Below, piece after piece: positions 25,369-60,384 of a stretch of DNA of 64,000 nt; position 1 is the first letter of the stretch, and every line of letters begins with the position of its first letter. The translations under genes were made by a program, and so were the position numbers. This stretch comes from Acorus gramineus (taxonomy: Eukaryota; Streptophyta; Magnoliopsida; Acorales; Acoraceae). Where the stretch lies: NCBI GenBank assembly GCA_030737835.1, contig CM060848.1, forward strand, positions 10,424,509 through 10,488,508, written 5' to 3'. Below the pieces are notes generated by a model that worked only from the letters and a program-made list of their open reading frames with translations, was not told the origin of the DNA and did not search any database.

Positions 25369-25735
25369 TGTTAGAATGTAAGCTAAGACTTTGACTATGT
25401 TTTGTTGGGTAGCTTGACTATATTTTTTTTGTAGTAAAGTTAGATAGTCAAGTATAATGGCTGATGTGATGTGTATTTACTTGCTATCCACATATTTTTT
25501 GTAAACTAAAAAAAGGTGAATATACATAAGAAGTAAAAAAAAAAAAACAGGGGAGAGGGGTGTAGATGTTCACCATAAAAAAAAGGGGACAGAGGCTCTC
25601 TTTCGTGTGTGTGTTTGTTTGAATGCTATTTCATCTTCTTTTGAGTGATTTCAGCAGGTTTTTTGGTGGTGAGTCTTGTTGAAGCTCACATATTTCCATC
25701 TTAAAGAAGGTGGTGGGGCTGAGTTTCAGCCATCA
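25369..25735 (+). repeat. 5' LTR of the young copia element
   Basis: 367 bp, TGTTAG...CATCA, nearly identical to 29797-30160. Ends three bases before the primer site. Confidence 0.93.
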
Positions 25736-28700
25736 AAGTGGTATCAGAGCTCGGTTCACTCAAAAGAAAGATGAGCAGTTTGGTGCAACCACAGATTCGA
25801 TTGTTCTCAGGTAAGAACTTTGAAAACTGGTGCATAAAAATGAAGGCTTTGTTTGGCTCACAAGATTTGCATGAGATTGTAGAAAAAGGGTTTGTAGATG
25901 TTGTAGGCCCAACAGCTTATGCTGCTCTTTCTCAAAATTAAAAGGATGTGTTGAAGGAGAGTATAAAGAAAGATCAGAAGGCTTTGGTTCTCGTACACCA
26001 AGCTGTGGATGATGCTATCTTTGACAGAATCTCAACAGCAAACACCTCCAAAGAAGCCTGGAAAATGTTAGAAGATATTTTTAAAGGTGAAGAAAGTTAG
26101 ATTGCATATGTTGCGCAGTGAGTTTGAAAAGCTCAACATGGCTGAAACTGAAAATATTTCTGAGTTCATCAATCGTGTTACGATGATTGTGAACCAATTA
26201 CGTGCTAATGGGGACAAGATTGAAGAAGTGAGAGTTGTTGAAAAGGTTCTCATAAGCTTGCCTAGAAAGTTTAAGCACATTGTTGTTGCCATTGAAGAGT
26301 CAAAGGACTTGTCAGAGTTGTCACTCAATTCCTTATCAGGCTCTTTGCAGAGTCATGAGCTGAGGATGAATCAAAGGGGTTTTGCTCCCATGGAGGAAGC
26401 CCTTAGAACCCAGCTGAATATTGGTGGACATGGAGGAAGAAGAGGTTCTCCAAGAGGCCGAGGAAACTATGGCAGAAGGGGTTTTCAAGAAAAAGTTGGG
26501 CAAGGACCAAGTTCTAGCAGACCTCCATTTATAAGAGGCAGAGGAAGATTCAGAGGAAGAAGAACGAGACCAGGTAAGTCTCATGTGCAATGCCATTACT
26601 GTAACAAGTATGGACATTACAAGTTTGAGTGCTTCAAGAAGAAGGCTGATGATGAAAAGAAGAATGAAGAAAGCTTTGTGCTTGAAAATTCACAAGAGAA
26701 TGAAGATGAAGTTACTTTGTTGCTTGTCTCAACCTCTCCTCAAAACAAGACCTCCACAATGTGGTACTTGGATAGTGGCTGTAGTAATCACATGTGTGGA
26801 GAGAGGGAGCTGATGTCAAACTTCGATGATTCCGTGAAGACCCAAGTGAAGATTGGTGATGACAAAAATCTTTATGTATCAGGCAAAGGTGATGTGCACT
26901 TCCAAACTAAAGAAGGTAAACATGGTTGCATCTCCAATGTCTTTTATGTTCCTCAGCTCAAGTATAACTTGCTAAGTGTGGGTTAGCTGTTACGAATGGG
27001 TCACCAATTGTTATTTAACAATTTTACTTGTAAAATCAAAGATGAAAGGGGAAGGCTTCTTGCCAATGTGAAGATGACAACAAACAATATGTTCTCTTTA
27101 CAAGTAAAAAATGAAATGGCATGCTTTAGTTAGTTCAGCTGTTAAAAATTCAGCATGGTTGTGGCATCAAAGATATTGTCATTTGAGCTTCAACAGCTTG
27201 CAAATGTTAGCAAAAAGGAATATGGTTCATGGACTGCCTTAGATAGAATAGCAAAATAGAATTTGTGAAGGTTGTTTGCTTGGTAGTCAGCACAGAGATC
27301 CTTTTCCAGTGAATAAAGCTTGGAGAGCTACAATGCCACTTCAACTCATTCACTCAAATGTGTGTGGCCCCATGGAGGTTTCATCGATAGGAGGGAATCG
27401 TTATTTCCTCTCCTTTATTGATGATTTCAGCAGAAAACTTTGGGTTTACTGCATAAAAGAAAAGTCTCAAGTGTTTAAAATGTTCAAAAGATTCAAGGCT
27501 CTTGTTGAGAAGCAGAGTGAGTGCTGCATAAAAACATTGAGGACAGATCGAGGTGGTGAGTTCATGTCACAGGAGTTCAGCAAATTTCTTGTAGATCATT
27601 GCATTCGGCGTCAGCTTACTTCTAGCTATACTCCACAACAAAATGGAGTGGCCGAGAGAATGAACCGAACCATTGTCGAGTCTGTCGAAGCATGTTGAAA
27701 TCCAAGAAGTTGCCAAAGTCATTTTGGGCTGAGGCTGTATCATGTGCTTGTTACTTGATTAATAGATCACCTACTAAAAGCCTAGTTGCAAAAACACCTG
27801 AAGAGGCATGGAGTGGTAATAAACCAAGTGTGGCCCATCTCAAAGTGTTTGGTAGCATTGCTTATGTGCATGTACCAAGTGAAAGAAGAAGAAAACTTGA
27901 TGCAAAATCTGAAAAATGCATATTTGTTGGGTATAGTGAATACTCAAAAGCCTACAAATTGTACAATCCAATTACAAAAAAAGGTTGTTACAAGTAGGGA
28001 TGTAAAGTTTGATGAAAATCAGTTTTGGGACTGGTTAGATGGGAAGAAAAAAGTGTCAGTTGTTGTTGATAATGAAGAGGAGTTTGAAGAAAGGCATGAA
28101 GAAGAAGAAGCTGAACATGAAAGTTCTCAAAAAAGCTCTCAACCTCCATCAACAGATGATCAAAGTAGCCTAAGTTTAGGTGGAAAGATGAGGAGTTTAG
28201 AAGACATCTACAATGAAACAGAGAATCAAGCCCAAGTTGGTGAACTTGAACTTTTTTCTCTATTTGTTGATGTTGAGCCACTTTCATTTGAAGATGCCAT
28301 GAAAGATGAGAGGTGGGTGCAAGCAATGAAAGAAGAAATTCAGTCCATTGAAAGGAACAAGACATAGGAGTTGTGTGATTTGCCCAAAGAACATGAACCC
28401 ATTGGTGTTAAATGGGTATACAAGAAGAAATTGAATGTTGAAGGGAAGGTTTGCCGCTACAAAGCAAGGGTTGTTGCAAAAGGCATTGATTTCCATGAAG
28501 TGTTTGCTCCGGTTCCTCGGTTAGGCACCATTAGAGTTATCTTATCATTAGCTGCCCAAAACAAGTGAAAGGTGTACCAAATGGATGTCAAATCAGCTTT
28601 TCTAAATGGTGATCCGAAGGAGAAGATATATATTGAGCAGCCCCCTGGTTATGTGAAGAAAGGAAAGGAACACAAAGTTTACCGGCTGAAAAAAACACTA

Positions 28701-29796
28701 TATGGCTTGAAACAAGCTCCAAGAGCATGGTATAGCAAAATTAGTACATATTTCAAGATGGCTAGATTTGTGAAATGTCCTTATGAGCATACTTTGTACA
28801 TAAAAACAAACAAGGAAGATGATGTACTCATAGTGTGCTTGTATGTTGATGATCTAGTCTTCACAGGAAGTAATATAAGCATGTTTGAAACATTTAGAAA
28901 GGAGATGATGCAAGAATTTGAAATGAGTGACTTGGGGCTGATGCATTATTTTGTTGGCATAGAGGTTTGTCAAAGTGAAGATGGCATTTTCATTTATCAA
29001 ATAAAGTATGCTAAAGAAATTCTGAAGCGCTTCAAGGTGGAACACTACAAGCCGGTATGTACTCCAATGTTGCAAGGTTTAAAACTCAGCAAATCTGAAG
29101 AAGAAGAGGGTGTCAATCAGACACTTTATCGTCAGCCTATTGGAAGCTTAAGGTACTTAACTGCAACAAGGCCAGATATTGTGTATTCAATTGGAATTTT
29201 GAGCAAATTTATGGAAGAGTCATTGGAAGGAAGGAAAAAGGGTGCTGAGATACATTAAAGGTACATTGAACCATGTCATTCACTATTATAAAGTAAAAGA
29301 TCCAAATCTAATTGGATACACAGATAGTGATTGGGGTGGAAGTGTTGAAGATAGCAAAAGTACTTCTGGGTACACATTCAATATTGGATCTGGTGCAATC
29401 TCATGGTCATCAAAGAAGCAATCCATTGTTGCTAGATCAACTGCTGAAGCTGAATATGTAGCAGCATCTCATGCAGCTTGTCAAGCAGTTTGGTTGAGAG
29501 GCATATTAAAATTTCTACATCATTCAGTTGATGGAGCAAGCACTATATTTTGTGATAACAAATCAGCAATTACACTCACCAAAGACCCTGTTTTTCATGA
29601 AAGAAGTAAGCATATCAAGATCCAATATCATTTTATCAGAGATCTAGTCGAAGAAGGTGAGATTCAGATTCAGTTTTGTTCATCTGAACAACAAGCAGCT
29701 GATATGTTTACCAAGCCCATGGGAGGTATGCTGTTTGAAAGAATGAAAAGAATGAATGGTATACAAACCATAGATAAAGTCTAGCTTAAGGGGAAG

Positions 29797-30160
29797 TGTT
29801 AGAATGTAAGCTAAGACTTTGACTATGTTTTGTTGGGTAGCTTGACTATATTTTTTTTGTAGTAAAGTTAGATAGTCAAGTATAATGGCTGATGTGATGT
29901 GTATTTACTTGCTATCCACATATTTTTTGTAAACTAAAAAAAGGTGAATATACATAAGAAGAAAAAAAAAAGGGGGGAGAGGGGTGTAGATGTTCACCAT
30001 AAAAAAAAAAGGGACAGAGGCTCTCTTTCGTGTGTGTGTTTGTTTGAATGCTATTTCATCTTCTTTTGAGTGATTTCAGCAGGTTTTTTGGTGGTGAGTC
30101 TTGTTGAAGATCACATATTTCCATCTTAAAGAAGGTGGTGGGGCTGAATTTCAGCCATCA
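29797..30160 (+). repeat. 3' LTR of the young copia element
   Basis: 364 bp. Directly preceded by the polypurine tract and followed by the GTATT target duplication. Confidence 0.93.
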
Positions 30161-37960: not shown

Positions 37961-40900
37961 CGCCGCCCTGCCGCTGCTCGCCCAGCCCTGCCGCGCCCAG
38001 ACCTGCCCTGCCCGGCGCCCAGCCCTGCCGCGCGCCCATCCCTGCCGCGCCGCGCCATGCCGCGCACTCCCTGCCGCGCGGTTGCATCTGCCCAGATTTC
38101 CCGGGATCTGTCGCGCTGATCCTGCCCAGATTTCCCAGGATCTGCTGGGACAGCTCCTGCCAGCCTGTCTCGAGCTGTCCGACCCGGCATCCGACTCGGG
38201 CGCTCCCAGCATCCGACCCAGATCTGCGAACCCGGCCCAGCAACCCGGATCCGCGAACCCAGATCCGCGAACCCGGCCCAGCATCCGACCCGGATCCGCG
38301 AACCCGGCCTGGGACGCGACCCGAATCCGCCCTCCGGCCGCCCTCTGCCGCCTCCGGCCGCCCTCCGCCGCCGCCGGCCGCTCTCTGCCACCGGCTCCTC
38401 CGGTCGCCGTCGTGCTCCTCCGGCCGCCCTCTGTCGCCTCCGGCCGCCCTCCACCGCCTCCAGCACCGCCTTGAGACTTCAAAATCACTAAATCGGTCAT
38501 AACTTCCTCTCCGGAAGTCCAATTAAGGTGATTCAGGAGTCCATTTTGCTCGATTTTTTGTGCTCTACGTCCTCGTCTGCTTCTGATCCTCATCCGAGTG
38601 GTTCTGCACAATGTCAGAAATCAACGACGACCCTACTCTTCCGTTACCAACTTCGAAGGTTTCTGATCTCTCTCAGGCTGCTACTCTCTCTCAAATGGCA
38701 TGTTTTGAGAATTTTCGGGACAATCTTCCGAACTCGACCGATTTTCCTCTTAGTTCTGTCGAAGATTGGTCACCCTGGCACATTACGGTACGGAGCGCTC
38801 TCGATCGTTGTCATCTTGTCGGTTATATTGATGGTTCTATTGTGCAACCGTCTGATCAAGACCCGACATATATCACCTGGCGCACACGGGACAGACGCGT
38901 ATTCTCCTATTTGATCAACTCTGTTGATCGTTCGATCCGTGCAGATCTCACTGGTTTTCCGTTGTCTGCCGCACTATGGACTCATCTTTGTGACCGCTTT
39001 GTAGAGAAAAGCGGTGCTCGTGAATATCAACTTCTGATCGACACTCAGACTGCTACTCAAGGTGATCTATCTGCCCAGACTCTATATGGCCGCATGAGGG
39101 CGAACTTCAGGGAGCTTCGTGCGCTTGAGCCTGGACCGATGGCCACTCCCGCTGAGCGAGAAGTTTTTCGTGATCGTCGTGAGTTGTATCAGTATCTGAT
39201 GGCTCTTCGTCCAGAGTTCTCTGCATTGGCCGGTCAACTCATACATCGGGATCCACTTCCTCGACTGGAATCCACCGTCACTGAGGTTGTTGCTGAGGAG
39301 ACTCGTCTTCGCACCATTGCATTGCGCCAGTCCACTCCATCTTCCACTTATGAGGGTGTCTTGGCAGCTACTCCTCCTACGACACTCACCGGCTCCTCTC
39401 GAAAGAATACATTGTATGCTCACTGCAAGAGGACTGGACATCCGATCGCCGACTGTTGGAAGCTTCATCCTGAAAAGCGCTTTGCACCAAAAGGAAGAGG
39501 ACAGCGTCGCCCCACTGCTCCCTATACTTCTGTTGCTGTTGCCACTGACGCTCCGTCTTCATACACAGATCAGCTTGGGCGTATCCGAGAGAGCCTCGAT
39601 CAACTGATCATACAGCAACCTCCTCCTGGTTCTTCTACTCCCTCTGCTTTCTCTACTACTTTGGGTACTCCTGTTCATTGGATTTTTTATTCAGGTGCTT
39701 CACATCACATGACACCGGACAGTTCTGTCCTCACTGCATGCTCACCGGCACCTTCACACCTGCCCACGATTCATACTGCAGATGGCTCCCCTTTAGTCAT
39801 CACGCAGTGTGGATCGATCACTACCACCTCTGACCCTACAGGACGCATTTCATTACCATTTGTTTTACATGCCCCTGACCTTTGCATGAATCTTATATCT
39901 ATTAGCCGATTGTGTGATTCTGGTCTCACTGTTACCTTTACCACCTCTGGTTGTCTTGTGCAGGATCCACGATCAGGGCAGAGGATTGGCGTTGGACGTA
40001 GGATTGGCGGACTTTATTACGTGGAGTATCTTCGTCTTCCCGTTCCTGATCCATCTGTCTTCTGTGGTAGCGTCACTTCTGATGTCGATTTGTGGCATCG
40101 AAGGTTAGGTCATGTGTCTGAGTCTCGTCTCAAAGAACTATTTCAATCTGGTGTCTTAGGTCGTATTTCTTTTTCTCCACTTTCTGTTTGCGAGGGCTGT
40201 AAATTAGCCAAACCTGTGGCTACTCCTTTTAGTCCTAGTAATAATCAGTCCTCTAGTCCATTTGAGCTTGTTCATTCTGACATTTGGGGCCCATCTCATG
40301 TAACCTCAAAGAGTGGTTTTTATTATATTAGTTTTATTGATGATTACTCTCGTTTTACTTGGATTTATTTATTGCGTCAACGTTCTGAGGTTCCCAAAAT
40401 TTATGAGATTTTTACCAATATGATTTATACCCAATTTCAAGCTCGTATCAAAACTTTTAGGTCTGATTGTGCTCGAGAATACATCTCTTCTACGATGCGT
40501 TCTCTTCTTCATTCTCATGGCACCCTTTTTCAGTAATCATGCCCCTACACTCATGAGCAAAATGGGGTTGCTGAACGTAAACATCGTCATATTCTTGAGA
40601 CGACTCGTGCTCTCTTACTTTCCTCTTCAGTCCCCAGTATGTTCTGGGCTGAAGGTGCTCTTCTCTGTGTCCATCTTATCAATATCACCCCCTCCTCTGT
40701 CCTCTCCGGTATGACTCCTCATGAGCGTCTTTATTCTTCTCACCCTGATTATAGCAGACTTCGCACATTTGGATGTACGTGTTTTGTGCTTCTCCCTCCT
40801 CATCAACGCACTAAGTTGGCCGCTCGGTCAGTAAAGTGTGTATTCTTGGGGATTAGCTTCGAACACAAGGTTATCGCTGCTATGATCCTGTTGGAGATCG

Positions 40901-43110
40901 ATTTTGGATCGCTCGTCATGTGTCCTTTGTCGAGGATGTTCCCTATTTTTCTTCTTCACCCACTCCGTCCTCTCCTCCTATTCAGGTCTCTCCTATTACG
41001 TCTCTTCCTTTTCCTGGCCTACCTGTTGCACTAGAGTCTGTTCCTACCCCTGCGTCTCAACCTGACAATCCTGCAGATAACCCACCCTCTCCTCCCAGTG
41101 TGTCACCTATTGTCCCTACTGAAGATACTTCCACTGGTCCTCCGACTCCCACGCCTGACGCGCCTCCTCCTGTCGTGGATCCTCATCTTTTGCCTCGTTA
41201 TCCTCACCGTGCACGTCACCCCCCTTCCTGCTTCAGTTACGACTTGGGGCCACCAGACCAGTTTGGTTTTGCATCTGTCAATACCTACTCTCCACAATTT
41301 CAGGCCTATCTCACAGCTATACATGTCCACCGTGAGCCCCGATCTTATCACGAGGCAGTCGAGTACCCTGAGTGGCAGCAGGCCATGGCTGAGGAGTTTG
41401 AGGCGTTTGAGCAGACACAGACCTGGGATGTTGTTCCCCTTCTGGATGGTGTTACCCCTATCAACTGCAAGTGGATTTTCAAGATCAAGCATTGCCCTGA
41501 TGGTTCCATTGAACGACATAAGGCTCGTCTTGTTGCTAGAGGTTTCACACAGGTGTATGGTATTGACTATGAGGAGACCTTCGCTCCTGTTGCTCAGATG
41601 ACTATTGTTCGCACCCTTCTCACCGTTGCTGCTGTTCGTCGCTGGCCTCTCTTTCAGATGGACGTGAAGAATTCTTTTCTTCATGGTGATTTATCTGAGG
41701 TTGTTTATATGCTACCACCTCCAGGTCTCAGCACTCCTCCTGATGGTTCCATTGAACGCCATAAGGCTCGTCTTGTTGCTAGAGGTTTCACTCAGGAGTA
41801 TGGTATTGACTATGAGGAGACCTTTGCTCCTGTTGCTCAGATGACTACTGTTCGCACCCTTCTCGCCGTTGCTGCTGTTCGTCGCTGGCCTCTCTTTCAG
41901 ATGGACGTGAAGAATTCTTTTCTTCATGGTGATTTATCTGAGGTTGTTTATATGCAACCACCTCCAGGTCTCAGCACTCCTCAGCATGTTTGTCGTCTTC
42001 GGCGGGCTATATACGGACTGAAACAAGCTCCTCGTGCCTGGTTTGAGCGTTTTCGCAGTGTTATTCTGACAGCTGGTTTTGTTGAGAGCCACCAGGACCA
42101 CTCTATGTTTGTGCGATCCTCATCGCAGGGGAGGGTAATCCTTCTTCTGTATGTTGACGACATGATTATAACTGGCGATGACTCCGCTGGTATTACTCGG
42201 GTCAAGAATCACCTCAGTCGACAGTTTCAGATGAAAGATCTTGGTACTCTTCGCTACTTCCTTGGTCTCAAAATTGCACAGAGTGATCGTGGGATTCTGC
42301 TTTCTCAACAGAAGTATACAGCTGACATTTTAGAGCGTGCTGCCCTCTCCGATACCCGCAGTGCGGATACTCCTCTTGAGCTTAATGTGAAGCTTCGTCC
42401 TACGGATGGTGAGCTCCTCTCAGATCCCACTCGATACAAACAGATCGTGGGTCAGCTTGTGTATCTCTGCATCACTAGATCTGACATTGCTCATGCCGTC
42501 AGTATTGTTAGTCAGTTTGTCTCGGCTCCTCGATCAGTGCATTATGGTGCTCTTATGCGAATTCTTAGATATTTGCGTGGTACTATCACTAGATCGATCT
42601 ATCTGTCATCCTCTTCGACTCTGGTTCTCGAGGCTTACACTGATGCTGATTGGGCTGGAGACCCGACGACTAGATGCTCCACCACTGGTTTCTGCATATT
42701 TCTCGGAGATTCTATCATCTCTTGGCGCAGCAAGAAACAGGAGGTTGTTTCTCTTTCCAGCACTGAGGCTGAATATCGAGCCATGGCTATCACCACCAAG
42801 GAGATTGTTCATCTCAGACGTCTCTTGGTGGATCTAGGAGTTACTATGACTGGTCCTACTCCTCTTCACTGTGATAACCGGTCTGCTATTCAGATTGCTA
42901 GCAATCCGGTCTTTCATGAGAGGACCAAACACATTGAGATCGATTGTCACTTCGTTCGTCAGCACTTTCTTACAGAGACATTATCGCTTCCGCATATCTC
43001 CTCTGCTGAGCAGCTTGCTGATTTCTTTACGAAGTCACATCCAGTTCCTCGATTTCAGTTTCTTCTTCGCAAACTCACTTTGTATGATCCACCGTGAGTT
43101 TGATGAGGGC

Positions 43111-48765: not shown

Positions 48766-49183
48766 CTTATACTTGTAATGTAGGATATTCTTCTTTCTTT
48801 GTTGAAGCCATGTAAAACGATCACAACATTCTAGACTAGAAGAAATCCCTAGGTCCTCCGAACTCCCAATAAAACAAACATGAATTCTGTCCAGAAATTA
48901 AGAGAACCAAAATATTTTTGAGAATCCAATGGCCAACAATTTTAAAGCAATCCTCCTGTTTCTCACTAAAACGGCATCCAATAATTCCCCAGGTCAAACA
49001 ATTTCAAAATGCATATGTCCGCTTATAACCACAAAATATGACGAAAAAGAGCACAACTCAGCTGATGCCAATGTTAAAATCATATGACTATTTCATTTTA
49101 TATTATTTGGTGAGAGGTGGTGGCTTGCTACTTATTTTGAGCCAAAGATGGTGCCCACCAATTCTGTGAAAATTGGAGGACTA
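48766..49183 (+). repeat. 418-bp flanking direct duplication, left copy
   Basis: Identical to 57172-57589 except for two substitutions seen by eye (near 48857-48880). It ends exactly at the gypsy LTR start (GGAGGACTA then TGTTGG). It is non-coding host DNA rather than part of the element. Confidence 0.92.
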
Positions 49184-50347
49184 TGTTGGTGGCTTTGATT
49201 GTCGTTAAAATCTCGTCTTTGCCAACAAAAATATAAAACCCTTACCTAGGTAGAAAGTGGTAGCAAGGGGTCGAATCCACAGGGAGGCTATTGAAGCAAA
49301 CGAATAAAAGTAAAAATTATCAATATTTGGCAAAAAGGTTTAAAAACAAATTATTTAAAAAGCTTAGGTTGAAGTCAATGTATAAAAAAAGACCACCAAG
49401 GATTGGAAATCCACCCCACGAATATCGTGATAATTCTTTCTTTTGCATTCAATGAAAACAGAATATTTCAAAAGCAGTTCACTTCTACTCGATTTAAAAA
49501 TAGGGTTTATAAAGCATCAACCGTATCCCATCTAAGTAGAACGACGGAAGATCTAAAAATACCCATAATCAAAAGAAATCTGAGTTGAAGAAACTATATA
49601 AACATGAAGAACAAATCAGAAAACATCAATGCACAAAGAAAATAATCAATCACTCAATCTCATGGGGTGGAATCCTCTCCTTGATGGAAGGATTTTCTAG
49701 CCTACCATGGTTGATGAAATTCTAGAATAAAAATAAAAATATTCCATAAAATAATAATGCACTTTATTGAAAACACAAGAGAATCTGTCTCTAATACTAA
49801 AGAAATAAAAACAAAAACAACAAAAACTGAAAATAAATTCCTTCTGGCTGAATGCAGAGATCTCTCCTTGGCTGAATGCCCTTTTTATAGGGGTTTTGAG
49901 GGTTGAATTAGTTGTAAATGCTGATTTGCTTGAGTTGTTAATGCTGATTTGCAAAATATGTTGGAGATATAATTGCAAAATCTGTTAGAGATCTTGTTGA
50001 TTTGTTGGAGATGTCAAAGCTGATTTGATTGAAGATTTTATTGATTTGGTAGATCATTTTTAGAAGTTTTGATGAAGCTTTGAATGCTAATTCCTTCTCC
50101 AATTTATAACCTGCCAAATTTAAATACTGCCAAATTTAGATTTCTGAATTTTAAAATATGGCTCTATATGAAAAATATGATAATGCATATTAATTGTATA
50201 AATATTGTCAATTTGTGCAAAATATGCTTTGAATATAAAGAATAGAAACTTCCCTAATATGCATGTATATATGAATAATTACATAGGGAAATGTTCCAAA
50301 ACAACTCTTAAAAGCATATAAAAATATGTTCTTTTGAATATCTAACA
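49184..50347 (-). repeat. 3' LTR of the Athila-like element
   Basis: 1164 bp, TGTTGGTGGC...ATATCTAACA on plus. The polypurine tract lies directly inside it. Confidence 0.92.
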
Positions 50348-53300
50348 AATACCCCCAAACCGCCTTTTTGCTAGTCCTCGAGCAAAACTAAAAAAAAATC
50401 CTAACTCACTTTCGCAGGAATCGCGGTTACACTTAGCATGTGCAACAAGCCTTTAAACCCCTAGGTCACCCTAGTGGACGAGTTGTGTCTCGTGAGGGTT
50501 TGCAGCGAATATACCCACAAAATTCTTTTTTTTTTTTTTTTTGAAAACAATGACATCTTCGGGAGCTTTATAAAAATCTACTAAAGTTGAGAACTCTATA
50601 CACATGTTAGAAGTTTTCACTCATAATCAAGTCCTGAAGTGTGTGTGTGCATAGCCAACAAAGATGTAGCTTTCTTTTTCCCAGTAAAACTTAATTTTGA
50701 TTACCTTAAGAATGGATTTCGCCTTGACTTCAAAAACTCACTGGATATTACACTCAACAAGGAAATCACTCAGAAGTGGGCTTATTTCTCTCAACTTATA
50801 TGTGACAAGGAATCAAAATTCAAATCATCCACATATAAAATTTATAGAAGGACGGACCATATCAAAGAAAAATAAAAATTTAATTTGATCTCAGGAACGG
50901 AATATCATCGACTCAAGAACATTGGATTAAACACCGTAAGTCCTCTTCATCTATTCTCCACATTTTAACCACATTACATTTAGGATCAAGTAGGTCTTTT
51001 CAATAGGTTGTAATGGGGCTAGGGTTATTATTGATAACTGGACAATGCTTTGAGAATTTGTATACTTTTTGATGAATATCGAGTATTTCTTTTTTTTTTT
51101 TTTTTTTTTTTTTCTTTTCACTGTTTTTTTTTTTTCTTAAAAATCATGATAGTAATAACCCTTCCATGAAATTTCATAGTAATTGATTGATCTTTCTTTT
51201 TCTTTTTCTTTCCTCATTCCCAAAGCAAAATTTAAGGTTACACTCATTGAGTGGAGTGTAGGTTAAAAAAAATAGGTTGAACAAAGAAAGGCTTATATGG
51301 CTCAAGGGGTTTGACTAGTGGATAAGTGTAAGAATAGGTTGGTTGAACATGATAGATGGGTTAACAAAGATGGCCTAAATCATTTCCTAAGTTTCACATG
51401 GTTATTATATGCCTTGAAAAGATTTCAGAGGAGTTTCTAGTGTAGTAATCCAATTTTTATGGTGTTCATGAGTCTTTGATCAAAACAAGAATAAAGAGAT
51501 CAAGCAAACGACATTTAAGCGAAAACAAGAAAAATTTGAGTTAACTTGTAACTCAGAATTATGTAAAGACACTCCAAGAATAGAATGGCTCAAATCTCTC
51601 CTAGGTTAAGTCTCCGCTAATGATTCATCCAGTTCTCTCCCTTAAATTTCACTTTTCCATTTAGGCTACATACATGTGGCTATAAGTGCTGAAAATTTTT
51701 CCAAGACTTGAAATTTGCGAAAAACATTTTAGACACATGATAGAATTAACAACTAAAGTGAAAATTAATCTGGCAAGCCAAAGGTATCCCAATGATTGAA
51801 GTTTTCTCAAAATTTTTTTTTTTTTTTTTTTTTTTTAAATTTCACATCAAAATTTGTTGATTATACCCCCAAACCTAAATCTAACATTGTCCTCAATGTG
51901 AATGACAACTACAAAATGATGCATGTGATGCAATAGAAATAAATAAAGAAGGTAGAGACTGCATACCTTATTTGATGTGAATTCTTATAATTTATCCTGT
52001 GACAAAATAGCTCAGTGAATCCGCATAGAAACATAGAAATGACAAATATGTACTCAAATTCAAAGCATAATAATTGAAAAATGTCCTAACCCTGAACCTA
52101 AAAATCTCATAGATGTACAAAGTGATCAATCCTGATACACAGGATCTTCCAAAAGTGTCTCCTCAACTTCTGGGCTCAGATACTCAAGATATGGTTTCAA
52201 ACGATGTCCATTGACTTGGAAAGTACTACCATCCTTGGCATTATGGATTTCAATCGCCCCATGTGGATGAACTTTCTCAACTGTGTATGGGCCAGTCCAG
52301 CGAGATTTCAATTTCCCAGGAAATAAATGAAGTCTAGAATTGTACAAAAGGACCTTCTGACCGGGAAAAATTCCTTACGAAGGATAATCTTATCATGCAT
52401 GGTCTTCATGCGGTCCTTGTACCTTGCGGCACAGTTATATGCATCATTCCTAATCTCTTCTAACTCATCGAGTTGTAGTTTCCTATGTTCTTTTGCCTTG
52501 TCGCGATCAAAATTGAGGCGTTTCATTACCCAATATGCTTTGTATTCTAATTTGACAGGTAAATGGTAGGCCTTGCCATAAATAGGGACTTGGTCAATGA
52601 AGGGTACAGGAAAATGATCCTTAAACTCTAACTGGGGTGAATTGACACTAGATGACACCAGCAAAGATTCAGAAATGGGCAATGATTCAAACTGAGTGGC
52701 CCATTTGCTAGTATCCATGAATAGAGCGGAATCTAAAAGTGCATTTGCTTCCCTAATTGAACCTTCTTTATCAAAATCTTTGCTGAATGGGTCAGAATAA
52801 CTCGACTCTTCCAAAGAGTTGTTGATCATATCATCAATCATGCAAACTTCCTCAAGATCATCAATTTCAGTTGATTGGTTACTACTATGGAAAACATTGA
52901 GTTGGACAGTCATGTTTCCGAAGGCTAGAGTCATTATACCATTCCGACATCTAATAACAGCATCTGATGTGGCTAAAAATGGTCTGCCTAGGATCACAGG
53001 GATATGGCTGCCTGGGTTTTTCACTGGTTCAGTTTCTAAGACTACAAAATCCACAGGATAATAGAATTCTTTCACCTTGACAATCACATCCTCCACAATT
53101 CCCTTTGGATATTTCACAGTTCTATCTGCTAATGAAAGGGTAATGTCTGTGGGTTTTAACTCCCCCAAACCTAACTCCTTGTACACAGAATAGGGTAGCA
53201 AATTCACACTGGCTCCTAAATCTAGGAGGGCTCTTTGGATGATAGTCTCTCCTACTTTGATCGCAATTGTGGGGCAACCAGGGTCCTTATATTTAGGGGC

Positions 53301-55989
53301 AATTTGCTGTTGAATGAAAGATGAGGCTTGTGCAGCCATCACAGCGTGCCTAGGAACACTGGTTCTCCTTTTCACCGTGGTGAGATCTTTCAGGAATTTT
53401 GTATAGGAGGGAATCTGTTTGATGGCATCTAAGAAAGGTATATTGATCTGAACATTTTTGAATACTTCCATGATATCATCAAAATGAGAACTTTTCTTGG
53501 GTTCTTGCAATCTAAGAGGATAAGGAGCTTTGGGTTTGTAGACATCTACTGGCTTTGGTGCTATTTCCTGGGTTTCATTTCCCTTCTCTTGGGTCTCCTG
53601 ACCTTCTTCCTGGTCAGCAGTCTTATGGACCGCGATTTCTTCACTTTTTTCCTTGGGGAGTTGGACCTTTTTGTCCACTCGCCTGCCATATGTTAAGGTG
53701 GTAATGGCCTGGACTTCATGGGATGAGTTTTCATTAGAGTTAACCTGATATTGCCCTATTGGGCCTTGACTCTGTTGCCTACTAGGATTAGGCACTGGCT
53801 GACTAGGTAATTCACCCTTCTTCCTATCTACTAGAGAACTGGCTATTTGGCTTAGACTAACTTCAAGTTTTGCAATTGCTTGTGCATGGATTTGATTAGT
53901 CTGGGTTTGTGACAAATTGGTTTGCTGCTGCTGATGGATGAATTCTTGTTGTTGCTTCATCATGTTAGCCATCATGGCTTCCAGATGTGAGGGTTGTTGA
54001 GGAGTGGGAGCAACATAAGGAGGAGGAGGTGGAACCAAAGGTTGGTTCAACTGAGGAGCTTGTGACGGGCTTGGCCTAGAAAAATTTCTTTGATACCCTG
54101 GTGGACCACCTTGATATTGGATAGGTTCATTCTGCCTATAAGAGAAGTTTGGATGAAACCTATTATCAGGATGGTATACTGGGCCAAAAGAATTGGGAGT
54201 GGGCTTTTTGAAGGCATTATATGAATTAATCGAATTTGCCTGCTCAGCCTTGATGGTGGGCAAACTAGGGCAACACTCCACTAGATGCTCTGAACTATCA
54301 CAAATGAGACATATGTTGTGTGGCTCATGTTCCACATTCATTATGGGGTTGAATCTCTTTGTGAGTTCAGGTTTGTTGTTATTGCAAAAGTATCGAACTT
54401 CTTGCTCAATTTGTTCACCCCATCCACTAAGTTGGTCATGACATATTTAAGATCTGGATCTGCTTTTATTTCATAAATACCTGACTTTCTAGATCCTCTA
54501 TCATCAACTTCATTGTCATAGCTACTCCAATTCTGGGCATTCTCAGCTAAATCTACAAGGAACTCATAGGCTTCATCAGGGGTCTGATCCATGAACTTAC
54601 CCTTGTGCATGGACTCAATCATGTTCCTATGTGTGTGAGGTAGTCCCTTATAGAAAAAGTGAACTAGTTGGGCTTTGTCAAGCCCATGGTGTGGGCATTT
54701 GATTAACAAATCATGAAATTTTTCCCAAATTTGAGAAAATTCATCTTCAGCTCTCCCCCTAAAAGTTCTAATGGCATCTTTGATTTTCTCAGTTTTTGCC
54801 ATAGGATAAAATTTTGTCATGAATTTTTTAGAGAGTTGTTCCCATGTTGAAATTGAATTGGTGGAGAGGGAATACAGCCATGCAGCTGCATGATCTTCCA
54901 AAGTCATGGGGAACAACCTCAATTTGACACCTTCCTCATCTAGGTTCTGATTTTTGAATGTTTGACAAATTGTCAAGAATTTGTTTAGATGGATATAGGG
55001 TTGCTCACTCTCGAACCCATGGAATTTGGGAAGCATATTGATGGTTGCCGGCCGAATTTCAAATTGGATTGCAGTGGTGGCCGGCAGCACTATGCAAGTT
55101 GGTGGATTGGAAGATGCAGGAGCATATAGCTCATTCAGGGTTTTGGCACGTTCACCCATTGTGAAGAGTGATGAATGGTTAAGGACTCGCCTATGTTGAT
55201 GAAAGGTTCTCTCAATCTCAGGGTCTAAAGGTTTTAACTCTCCCCTAATGGATCTTCTACCGTGCATGCACCAGAAACAAAAAAAATTTGAACCTCTCCT
55301 AGATTAGACAGCTCCTAACAGGTTTGAAGAGTACACCTAAGCCTCCAATTCAATCCTATGAAACGTTGACCAGGTCAGCCTCCAGGTAGTGGTGGGGTCA
55401 CAATGGTCCCGCTTAAGTACCACCCTCCTAGAACACAATGTGTCTCCCTTAGAGGGACAAAGCTTTCCTAGACATCAACATGATCAAAGAGCATAATTGG
55501 TGGAACTTTTGGTGGTCTTTGCCTTAATGAGCTCAAGAATCCTAAAGCCAATGTCTAATTGATTTTATTTTAATTGGCTTGGGATAATCATGCAATGTAG
55601 TGATTTTTGGGCCAAGGACGATTGATGAAATACCGACCTTATCTTTTTTTCTTTTTTTTTTAATGAATTTTGCCCTTAAGTTGATTTATGCAAATGAATA
55701 CGCTAAATGCACAACAAACATTAAAACAAGAGCTTTTGTCAATGGAGAACTTACCTACGGAGTATGTTCACTCCGGAAATCCAAAAATTTGAAGTGGAAT
55801 TAGATCAATGAGTCTTGAGCTTTATGTTCCTCATCCTTCTCTCTTCTTCCTGCAAACCAAATAAAAGAAAAATAATTTTTTTTTTATATAATTTTTTTTT
55901 TTTTTTTTTTTAAGAAAAGAAAAAAAAAAATTTTGATACCTTCAACCTTCACCGTTACTTACCTTGCCTCCCCGGCAACGGCGCCAATT

Positions 55990-57171
55990 TGTTGGTGGCT
56001 TTGATTGTCGTTAAAATCTCGTCTTTGCCAACAAAAATATAAAACCCTTACCTAGGTAGAAAGTAGTAGCAAGGGGTCGAATCCACAGGGAGGCTATTGA
56101 AGCAAACGAATAAAAGTAAAAGATTATCAATATTTGGCAAAAAGATTTAAAAACAAATTATTTGAAAAGCTTAGGTTGAAGTCAATGTATAAAAAAAAAG
56201 ACCACCAAGGATTGGAAATCCACCCCACGAATATCGTGATAATTCTTTCTTTTGCATTCAATGAAAACAGAATATTTCAAAAGCAATTCACTTCTACTTG
56301 ATTTAAAAATAGGGTTTATAAAGCATCAACCGTATCCCATCTAAGTAGAACGACGGAAGATCTAAAAATACCCATAATCAAAAGAAATCTGAGTTGAAGA
56401 AACTATATAAACATGAAGAACAAATCAGAAAACATCAATGACAAAGAAAATAATCAATCACTCAATCTCATGGGGTGGAATCCTCTCCTTGATGGAAGGA
56501 TTTTCTAGCCTACCATGGTTGATAAAATTCTAGAATAAAAATAAAAATATTCTATAAAATAATAATGCACTTTATTGAAAACACAAGAGAATCTGTCTCT
56601 AATACTAAAGAAATAAAAACAAAAACTAAAAATAGAAAAGAAATAACAAAAACTGAAAATAAATTCCTTCTGGCTGAATGCCGAGATCTCTCCTTGGCTG
56701 AATGCCCTTTTTATAGGGGTTTTGAGGGTTGAATTAGTTGTAAATACTGATTTGTTTGAGTTGTTAATGCTGATTTGCAAAATATGTTGGAGATATAATT
56801 GCAAAATCTGTTAGAGATCTTGTTGATTTGTTGGAGATGTCAAAGCTGATTTGATTGAAGATTTTATTGATTTGGTGGATTATTTTTAGAAGTTTTGATG
56901 AAGCTTTGAATGCTAATTCCTTCTCCAATTTATAACCTGCCAAATTTAAATACTGTCAAATGTAGATTTCTGAATTTTAAAATATGACTCTATATGAAAA
57001 ATATGATAATGCATATTAATTGTATAAATATTGTCAATTTGTGCAAAATATGCTTTGAATATAAAGAATAGAAACTTCCCTAATATGCATGTATATATGA
57101 ATAATTACATAGGGAAATGTTCCAAAACAACTCTTAAAAGCATATAAAAATATGTTCTTTTGAATATCTAA
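55990..57171 (-). repeat. 5' LTR of the Athila-like element
   Basis: Starts three bases from the tRNA-Asp primer site. Its outer edge joins the right 418-bp copy. The last base or bases of the LTR appear to be shared with or replaced at that junction. Confidence 0.9.
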
Positions 57172-57589
57172 CTTATACTTGTAATGTAGGATATTCTTCT
57201 TTCTTTGTTGAAGCCATGTAAAACGATCACAACATTCTAGACTAGAAGAAATCCCTAGGTCCTCCAAACTCCCAATAAAACACACATGAATTCTGTCCAG
57301 AAATTAAGAGAACCAAAATATTTTTGAGAATCCAATGGCCAACAATTTTAAAGCAATCCTCCTGTTTCTCACTAAAACGGCATCCAATAATTCCCCAGGT
57401 CAAACAATTTCAAAATGCATATGTCCGCTTATAACCACAAAATATGACGAAAAAGAGCACAACTCAGCTGATGCCAATGTTAAAATCATATGACTATTTC
57501 ATTTTATATTATTTGGTGAGAGGTGGTGGCTTGCTACTTATTTTGAGCCAAAGATGGTGCCCACCAATTCTGTGAAAATTGGAGGACTA
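57172..57589 (+). repeat. 418-bp flanking direct duplication, right copy
   Basis: Starts CTTATACTTGTAATG directly after the LTR and ends GGAGGACTA before CATGG, which is the host sequence continuing to the right. Confidence 0.92.
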
Positions 57590-59147: not shown

Positions 59148-60214
59148 TCATTTCGATGCCAGGAGGACATCCGGCTTCCTCTGCTTGCTCAGCGTATTGG
59201 GGTTCGAAGACACATTAGCCAAAATAATGGCAGATGCCGATCTAGCCTTCCGGTCAAGCTGAATAAGGCTGCGTGCAGCCAAGATCGCCTGGGGCATCAG
59301 ATCATGCAATGCACGTGCATACATGCATCGAACCGCTGCAGAAGCCGCGTCCCTGACCTCCCGGTGGTTCAATGGCGCGAGAAGGCAGTGCCCAAGGATC
59401 CTCAACACAGGCTGCATCAGCTCCCATGGGAAAGGAATCCGAGACCCAGACCCGATTCCGCACTTCTCCTCGCAAACGCTCAATTTGCCCATCTCTTTGG
59501 ATACAAAACCGACCTCATCATCGTCCTCGCCAAGATCCGTCTGGCAGGGGCAGTTCTGCCCAGTCCAAGCTGAGGCGAACTCGCAGAGGTCGAGCTTTGA
59601 CGTCGCAGGCATGAGAGAGATTTGTCTTGTAGAAGCAGTCAAGCGCGACCGCGACAACGCAGGCGCGCTTGGTGGATTTGACGCCGATCTGTGGCTCGAG
59701 CGGTGGTGAGAGAACCCCGATCGACGGCTTCCATTCGTTCATGGACGGCGAACGCGAAGATTTCGAAGAGGGAGGGGAGTGGTAGAGAGAGGGGTAGGAG
59801 AGGTCGGGCACGGAAACCAACACGGGCTTCCCCGAGCGAGACCGGGCCTCGGCGTTGTAGAAGGCGAGGAGCACGGATTCGAACCCGGCGAGGGAGGGGG
59901 AGGCGGCGGCGGAGAGGACGCGAGAGAGGTAGAGGCCGGAGATGAGGGGGACGAAGGAGAGGACGACGAGACGGAGGTCGGCGTCGGTGGAGAGGTAGGT
60001 TTCGTAGATCCACTGGCAGAGGGCGTCGTCGCCGGAGCCGGAGGAGGGGGGGGCGGAGGGCGGAGGAGATGGCGGAGGGGTTTCCGAGGACGGAGCGAGC
60101 GGGGCAGTCGGAATCGGCGAGGGGGGCGATGGCATCGTCGCCGAAGGGGACGATGGAGGAGAGGGAGTGGATGCGGGAGCGGACGCGGGAGACGGCCTCC
60201 CACCATGACTGCAT
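59148..60214 (-). CDS. Hyccin-family protein (PI4-kinase alpha complex subunit), with two apparent frame changes
   Basis: An intronless coding region of 1067 bases, corresponding to about 354 residues. Family landmarks in order are MQSWWEAVSRVRSRI at the N-terminus, LVVLSFVPLISGLYLSRVL, GKPVLVSVPDLSYPSLYH, KSTKRACVVAVALDC, ASAWTGQNCPC, IPFPWELMQPVLRILGHC and LIQLDRKAR. Hyccin, with a TTC7-like partner and EFR3-like anchors, holds PI4-kinase alpha at the plasma membrane to make PI4P; this role is known from animals and Arabidopsis. The reading frame changes twice. One change is at an eight-G run (60046-60053). The other is near 59620-59640, beside an A/CT-rich stretch. Each is one extra base; without both, the frame closes to exactly 355 codons. 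So either these are consensus errors at short repeats, or the gene is a very recent pseudogene. The coding region is strongly GC-rich at its 5' end. Confidence 0.85.
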
Positions 60215-60384
60215 TGGATTTGTGGCGCGGTTGATAGGATTTGGGAGGTTGGCGGTGGTGATGGTGGTGGTGGTTGGGGGTGATGGATCAGCGGAGGAGG
60301 GGGAGGCGATGCCGTTGATTTGGGACTCCGTCCCTTGTTCGCCTGTGCGAGCGGGTTCCGTGTTTTGGAACCGTTTTTTTATAT

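Follow-up and report, generated by a model that had tools for sequence, protein, structure and literature searches.

We analysed a 64,000-nucleotide window of the Acorus gramineus genome (contig CM060848.1, positions 10,424,509 to 10,488,508). It contains a Ty3/gypsy long terminal repeat (LTR) retrotransposon that is bordered on its two sides by direct copies of one and the same 418-bp host segment, located at 48766–49183 and 57172–57589 on the plus strand. The element itself lies on the minus strand, with the primer-binding site on the inner side of the right LTR and the polypurine tract on that of the left LTR. The left LTR (49184–50347) is therefore the 3′ LTR and the right LTR (55990–57172) the 5′ LTR, and the aberrant right junction described below is the U3 end of the latter. 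The sequences that we take, from general knowledge, to be the polypurine tract (50348–50359, minus strand, C-rich on the plus strand) and the primer-binding site (55969–55986, minus strand, 3 bp from the 5′ LTR) have the same context at other left and right LTRs of the family, respectively. Both are present, together with two LTRs with TG..CA ends, the outer U3 end being one base short.

Eleven stop-to-stop frames of at least 80 amino acids were listed, and the three internal ones on the minus strand were scanned for domains. The frame at 54341–55303 matched Retrotrans_gag (E = 2.6e-18) and Ty3_capsid (5e-07), and the frame at 52308–54446 contained an aspartic protease domain (Asp_protease_2, 8.4e-06). 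The end of the latter frame resembles what we take to be an integrase tail, with no Pfam match. Because no reverse transcriptase or integrase domain was matched in the three scanned frames, we term this copy non-autonomous and presume that integrase came from elsewhere.

A self-comparison aligned the two host copies over 418 columns with two mismatches (48860/57266 and 48877/57283) and no gaps, confirming the first-pass annotation, which had described the same 418 bp on both sides with two differences. As it had also proposed, the left copy abuts the start of the left LTR at 49184 exactly and the right copy is flush with the end of the right LTR, with the C at 57172 assignable to either; the right copy then reads straight into host CATGGTATAAAA. 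Searching the 398.6-Mb genome with the 418-bp segment returned only these two sites (two of two candidates), and the 600 bp upstream of it were found at a single genomic place. The segment is thus, as far as genome searches show, a local host duplication round the insertion, and not a dispersed repeat. The same observations bear on the possibility that an occupied and an empty haplotype were spliced during assembly, so that the 418 bp appear two times. Mis-joining of this sort could befall a heterozygous insertion, and the case is built on the assembly; however, a mis-join within 1 bp of an LTR end is not expected, the window has no Ns, the copies differ at two positions, and neither a third copy nor a leftover allele was found in the assembly. 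We therefore give an assembly error very little weight.

At the left (U5) junction, the LTR begins at TG directly beside host DNA, with no extra bases and without the 3 bp that separate the LTR from the primer-binding site. This is the exact processed U5 end; it looks like an end as integrase leaves it, although the action of the enzyme is read from the sequence. At the right (U3) junction, the window copy ends in CTAAC, lacking the terminal A of the family end CTAACA, and is joined to DNA 418 bp upstream with 1 bp in common; the first-pass annotation had noted at most one or two shared bases and a slightly short LTR here. The element is not flanked by a 5-bp duplication: its left flank ends in GACTA (49179–49183, the putative integrase target) and its right flank starts with TTATA or CTTAT. 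GACTA is found on both outer edges of the structure, at 49179–49183 and 57585–57589. We conclude that the aberration is confined to the right (U3) end, whereas the left end has the appearance of a regular integrase product. Short tandem duplications do occur nearby, so that the 418 bp might already have been tandem when the element inserted between the copies. Normal insertion would, however, leave the same 5 bp on both sides and not GACTA against TTATA or CTTAT, and insertion into an older tandem duplication was rejected on this ground; we regard its likelihood as negligible.

We then compared the junctions of other family members, read from loci and from end pieces. The genome yielded 279 first-look candidates with the LTR as query, 68 with gag and 64 with the protease region, and 40 candidates were scored per query. 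Both junctions could be read for 31 other distinct insertions, 23 of which carried an exact 5-bp duplication and five a 5-bp duplication with one mismatch, making 28/31 in all. The remaining three comprised a solo LTR with 7 bp (C2:31869053), one copy with no duplication (C7:14243/14251) and one ambiguous copy (C10:20403). The second of these (C7:14243060–14252176) has LTR ends that are intact, and its flanks share no long repeat. In three copies (C5:27450827, C70 and C80:631), changes in the end bases were allowed for when the LTR edge was placed. Copies whose flanks were the same as those of counted copies (C5:12857, C80:886 and C52:4319) were dropped before the count, as were C1:12281, whose left edge did not coincide with the LTR start, C56:2973, whose left edge was unread, and copies with only one end read.

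No flank duplication of hundreds of base pairs flush with the LTRs was found at any of these 31 insertions within the flanks examined (277–1500 bp on the left and 491–1500 bp on the right), in which longer offsets would escape notice. Non-flush similarities between flanks were seen at C4 (339 columns, 78%), C1:13228 (75 columns, 87%) and C32 (73 columns, 81%). The first-pass annotation had suggested a survey of other LTR elements for large flanking repeats; it was run in this family only, with none of 418-bp size among the 31. Its claim of a departure from the normal duplication of about 5 bp held, since most family copies have 5 bp and the window copy 418 bp. Counting duplicated loci, 39 of the 41 other right ends observed read CTAACA, as do both of two ends read later. 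The two exceptions are C5:27456676, which has A for C and keeps the final A, and C10:20403. The window copy thus resembles the other Ty3/gypsy copies of its family in its LTRs, primer-binding site, gag, protease and left-end structure, and differs in having 418 bp in place of 5 bp and a U3 end one base short.

The family has a target preference of the form G-NNNNN-C. Among 25 sites with a 5-bp duplication, G was at −1 in 12 and C at +1 in 19; both were present at nine (9/25), against 3.8% in a background consisting of the first 24 kb of the window. The left target of the window element, G-GACTA-C, lies at the 98th percentile of the background scores, whereas the U3 joining site lies at the 83rd (TTATA register) or the 20th (CTTAT register). 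These scores give moderate support to integrase having chosen GACTA and not the U3 joining site. They bear also on the idea that a break whose nicks lay far apart captured retrotransposon DNA, which host end-joining then attached on both sides without integrase. That breaks can capture retrotransposon sequences is documented in the accessible part of one account (PMC4516963), and other tandem duplications are present in the window. Under such a capture, however, a U5 end exactly at the processed CA and a left target that fits the integrase preference would be two coincidences, and we hold it to be very improbable.

We favour the reading, to which we assign a probability of about 0.7, that the window insertion arose by one-ended (aberrant) integration, with integrase joining one end and host repair the other. 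Integrase supplied in trans would process the U5 end and join it to the bottom strand beside GACTA, as in a normal event, while the U3 end would fail to be joined 5 nt away on the opposite strand. The U3 DNA end would lose 1 nt and be joined by host repair, with one shared base, to a top-strand position 418 nt upstream, and fill-in or copying of the 418 nt would leave one copy on each side. The simplest route would begin with a nick in the second strand at a distance of 418 nt, after which the 5′ overhangs would be filled in and the ends joined; the same product would result from equivalent routes with an empty sister chromatid or homologue as template. Because the polarity is that of a normal event but the distance is 418 nt instead of 5 nt, filling in 5′ overhangs would place a copy on each side. 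We infer the role of integrase in the left join, the origin of the two joins in a single event, and the route of repair. The first-pass annotation had already proposed a non-normal event with an end-joining-type junction and a short LTR, and that much stands; it can now be sharpened, in that the left end appears normal and only one end is aberrant.

Events of this type are known from retroviruses. According to the available portion of one report (PMC5041404), one end is normal and the other aberrant and often truncated in HIV proviruses formed under inhibited or weakened integrase and in avian sarcoma-leukosis virus (ASLV) when one of its ends is defective. At the aberrant end of such events, host DNA may be duplicated, deleted or inverted over a large stretch, and short homology at the join is usual, not constant. 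The host duplications in the HIV set were usually much longer than 5 bp, being 'hundreds or thousands of bp long'. In that portion, Varadarajan et al. favour priming by a free 3′ end followed by homologous recombination (PMC5041404). Given the 1-bp overlap seen here, a nick followed by fill-in and end-joining is at least as simple.

Alternatively, a normal insertion at GACTA might have come first, the U3 junction being broken later, 413 bp copied leftwards from an unoccupied homologue or sister chromatid, and the copied end rejoined to the LTR. The copying would take the form of synthesis-dependent strand annealing by the right-hand chromosome end. The structure can indeed be described as a normal insertion, with GACTA on both sides, plus a 413-bp copied insert beside the right LTR. 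For the human genome, the accessible part of one source reports 824 closely linked duplications that were made by repair and measure up to 619 bp (PMC2671141). A random break would, however, have to land within 1 bp of the LTR end, and we consider a later break unlikely. If the break were the integration junction itself, this coincidence would be gone, and the explanation would merge with one-ended integration.

Over 1162 aligned columns, the two LTRs of the window copy differ by 15 substitutions (1.29%), mostly transitions (13), and there are internal gaps of 1, 2, 18 and 1 bp. The divergence of the flanks did not differ significantly from that of the LTRs (Fisher p = 0.27; Poisson p = 0.095 for two or fewer changes at the LTR rate). 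These values are uninformative on age, and the earlier argument that the two events could be of similar age is weak, as lopsided LTRs make a poor clock. The rare state was in the right LTR at 13 of the 15 differences, in the left LTR at one, and unclear at one (p = 0.0018 for 1/14), in a sample of LTRs biased toward copies near the left LTR of the window. Three control copies were equally lopsided: C4 (1:14) and C70 (3:14), with exact 5-bp duplications, and C5:27450827 (1:12), with one mismatch. The opposite imbalance was found in C2:18531382 (25:6). Pairs of LTRs in the family are often unequal in rare states (1:13, 1:14, 3:14, 25:6 and 29:6); balanced pairs also exist (3:3 in a three-LTR copy on C5, 6:8 in C64). 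Gene conversion and uneven mutation are candidate causes. In the available part of the study by Jedlicka et al., 25% of the LTR pairs of plants are reported to show potential gene conversion (PMC7251063), which could be one cause of the imbalance here. Because the imbalance occurs also in copies with 5-bp duplications, LTR divergence at this locus permits no argument about age or about crossover. For the same reason, the lopsided LTRs were not taken as support for a chimera of an old and a young element.

The crossover in question would be an unequal exchange between two insertions of the family, of the same orientation, that occupied opposite edges of the 418 bp: the left edge on one homologue and the right edge on the other. 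It would yield exactly the observed order of left flank, 418 bp, element, 418 bp and right flank by known processes, and elements with a middle LTR attest to recombination among family copies. The lopsided distribution of rare states (13 against 1) and the position of the window LTRs, which are not sisters in a weakly supported tree, would also fit. This imbalance is not diagnostic, however, as the controls show. Two independent insertions 418 bp apart would be required, the right end is predicted to be an intact CTAACA, which is absent here, and the predicted normal target, C-TTATA-C, fits the preference less well. Furthermore, when the right LTR was compared with 50 other LTR rows, the closest of them, by a narrow margin, was this element's own left LTR, and no switch of rare states was found within the inner 1.5 kb at either side (none in the 1.5 kb beside the left LTR and three in the 1.5 kb beside the right LTR). 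We judge an unequal crossover to be highly unlikely.

Several points weigh against one-ended integration. The case is a single clear event, and a 1-bp deletion at a later time could account for the absence of the terminal A. The right junction looks as though it was made by end-joining-type repair, as first proposed, but an overlap of 1 bp is at chance level and says little about the joining pathway. The target test was designed after the pattern had been seen and uses 25 sites, and the window LTRs are not sisters in a star-like, weakly supported tree whose bootstrap is not settled. In the accessible part of the HIV report, none of 99 and none of 85 proviruses from unperturbed wild-type infections was aberrant (PMC5041404); the event is therefore rare, and other rare events compete with it. 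One clear case among 32 distinct insertions, including the window copy, gives no rate, as the window copy was not randomly drawn.

A possible smaller companion is the ambiguous copy C10:20403 (C10:20394985–20406458). The last 22 bp of its left flank recur once in the right flank, 7 bp past the LTR end, and its right LTR ends in CTAACC in place of CTAACA, making it the only other right end without the terminal A among the 41 compared. Either this is a normal insertion with a GGCGT duplication, in which the terminal A changed to C and the target was already a 23-bp tandem repeat, or it is possibly another one-ended event, in which 22 bp were duplicated and a filler of 7 bp was added. Of the 64,000 bases of the window, 529 lie in exact tandem repeats of this kind, so that the first reading needs two uncommon facts. 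A diverged paralogue (C4:4266130–4266640) fits a one-copy model (score 166) and a two-copy model (165.5) about equally, and the right flank of C10:20403 occurs also at C62:2172595.

Further variation was seen in the family. The query 51900–52900 matched over its first 681 bases only in 11 of the 40 scored candidates, which indicates a second structural form. The elements at C5:15923385–15945421 and C32:58525–74800, the latter complex, have more than two LTRs, with a middle LTR that has internal sequence on both sides; both are still bounded by exact 5-bp duplications. A solo LTR (C69:130911–134383) and a two-LTR copy (C52:4317506–4329232) have the same bases beside their LTR ends, and probably represent one duplicated locus before and after LTR–LTR recombination. 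The protease region (53000–53900) is near-identical among many copies: two match the window's own score over 901 bases, and 16 copies besides the window's, these two among them, reach at least 1608 bits, compared with 1626 for the window itself. The gag region (54341–55303) of copies that appear in both the gag and protease lists is mostly 97–98% identical.

Elsewhere in the window, the two LTRs of a copia element at 25369–30160 share about 97% identity, and the element is flanked by a normal duplication of 5 bp, GTATT. A tandem duplication at 41496–41982 (offset 243 bp, 97% identical) lies inside an open copia reverse-transcriptase frame at 40857–43094, where the match to RVT_2 falls into two stretches. 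A frame with a Hyccin domain (59521–60378, minus strand) lies at a distance of about 2 kb from the right 418-bp copy.

Long host direct repeats round an insert are reportedly also found at L1-type elements with large target duplications, which arise by target-primed reverse transcription; unlike these, the window element has LTRs and integrase-type ends. It is closer to the one-ended integrations of ASLV and HIV, as far as these are described in the accessible part of the report, in having one normal end, one trimmed end and duplicated host DNA (PMC5041404). It differs from those vectors in that the event is natural and old and concerns a pol-less plant-type LTR retrotransposon, and in having only 1 bp of overlap and 1 nt trimmed. 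Duplication mediated by repair through proximal DNA capture, as the available part of its description has it, likewise copies hundreds of base pairs of nearby DNA at a break (PMC2671141); in the window, by contrast, the break coincides with a retroelement end. In the part of another study that was available, a 9-bp duplication is termed unusually long (PMC10462705), and among the matches listed in the literature, whose coverage was partial, no plant LTR retrotransposon had a host duplication of more than 100 bp. One-ended integration is thus known from retroviral vectors and looks little described for natural LTR retrotransposons.

Programs for annotation and dating expect a duplication of 4–6 bp, and tend to discard such copies or to set their edges wrongly. 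We believe that the window copy is probably a real, natural example of one-ended LTR-retrotransposon integration, with one possible smaller companion in the family. That a natural copy has one end clean and the other trimmed suggests that integration of the one-ended type occurs also in a germ line, where it can duplicate regulatory or coding DNA. Such copies have a searchable signature, in which the U5 end is clean, the U3 end is trimmed and the flanks are duplicated over much more than 5 bp, and with it the rate could be measured in many genomes. We offer, as a doubtful speculation, that one-ended insertions are commoner among pol-less elements, which borrow their integrase, than among autonomous ones, and that natural bursts of LTR retrotransposons accordingly leave host duplications of tens to hundreds of base pairs split by an element. 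If this were true, such element-split duplications would be discarded by annotation based on 5 bp, and C10:20403 would be a second member of the class.

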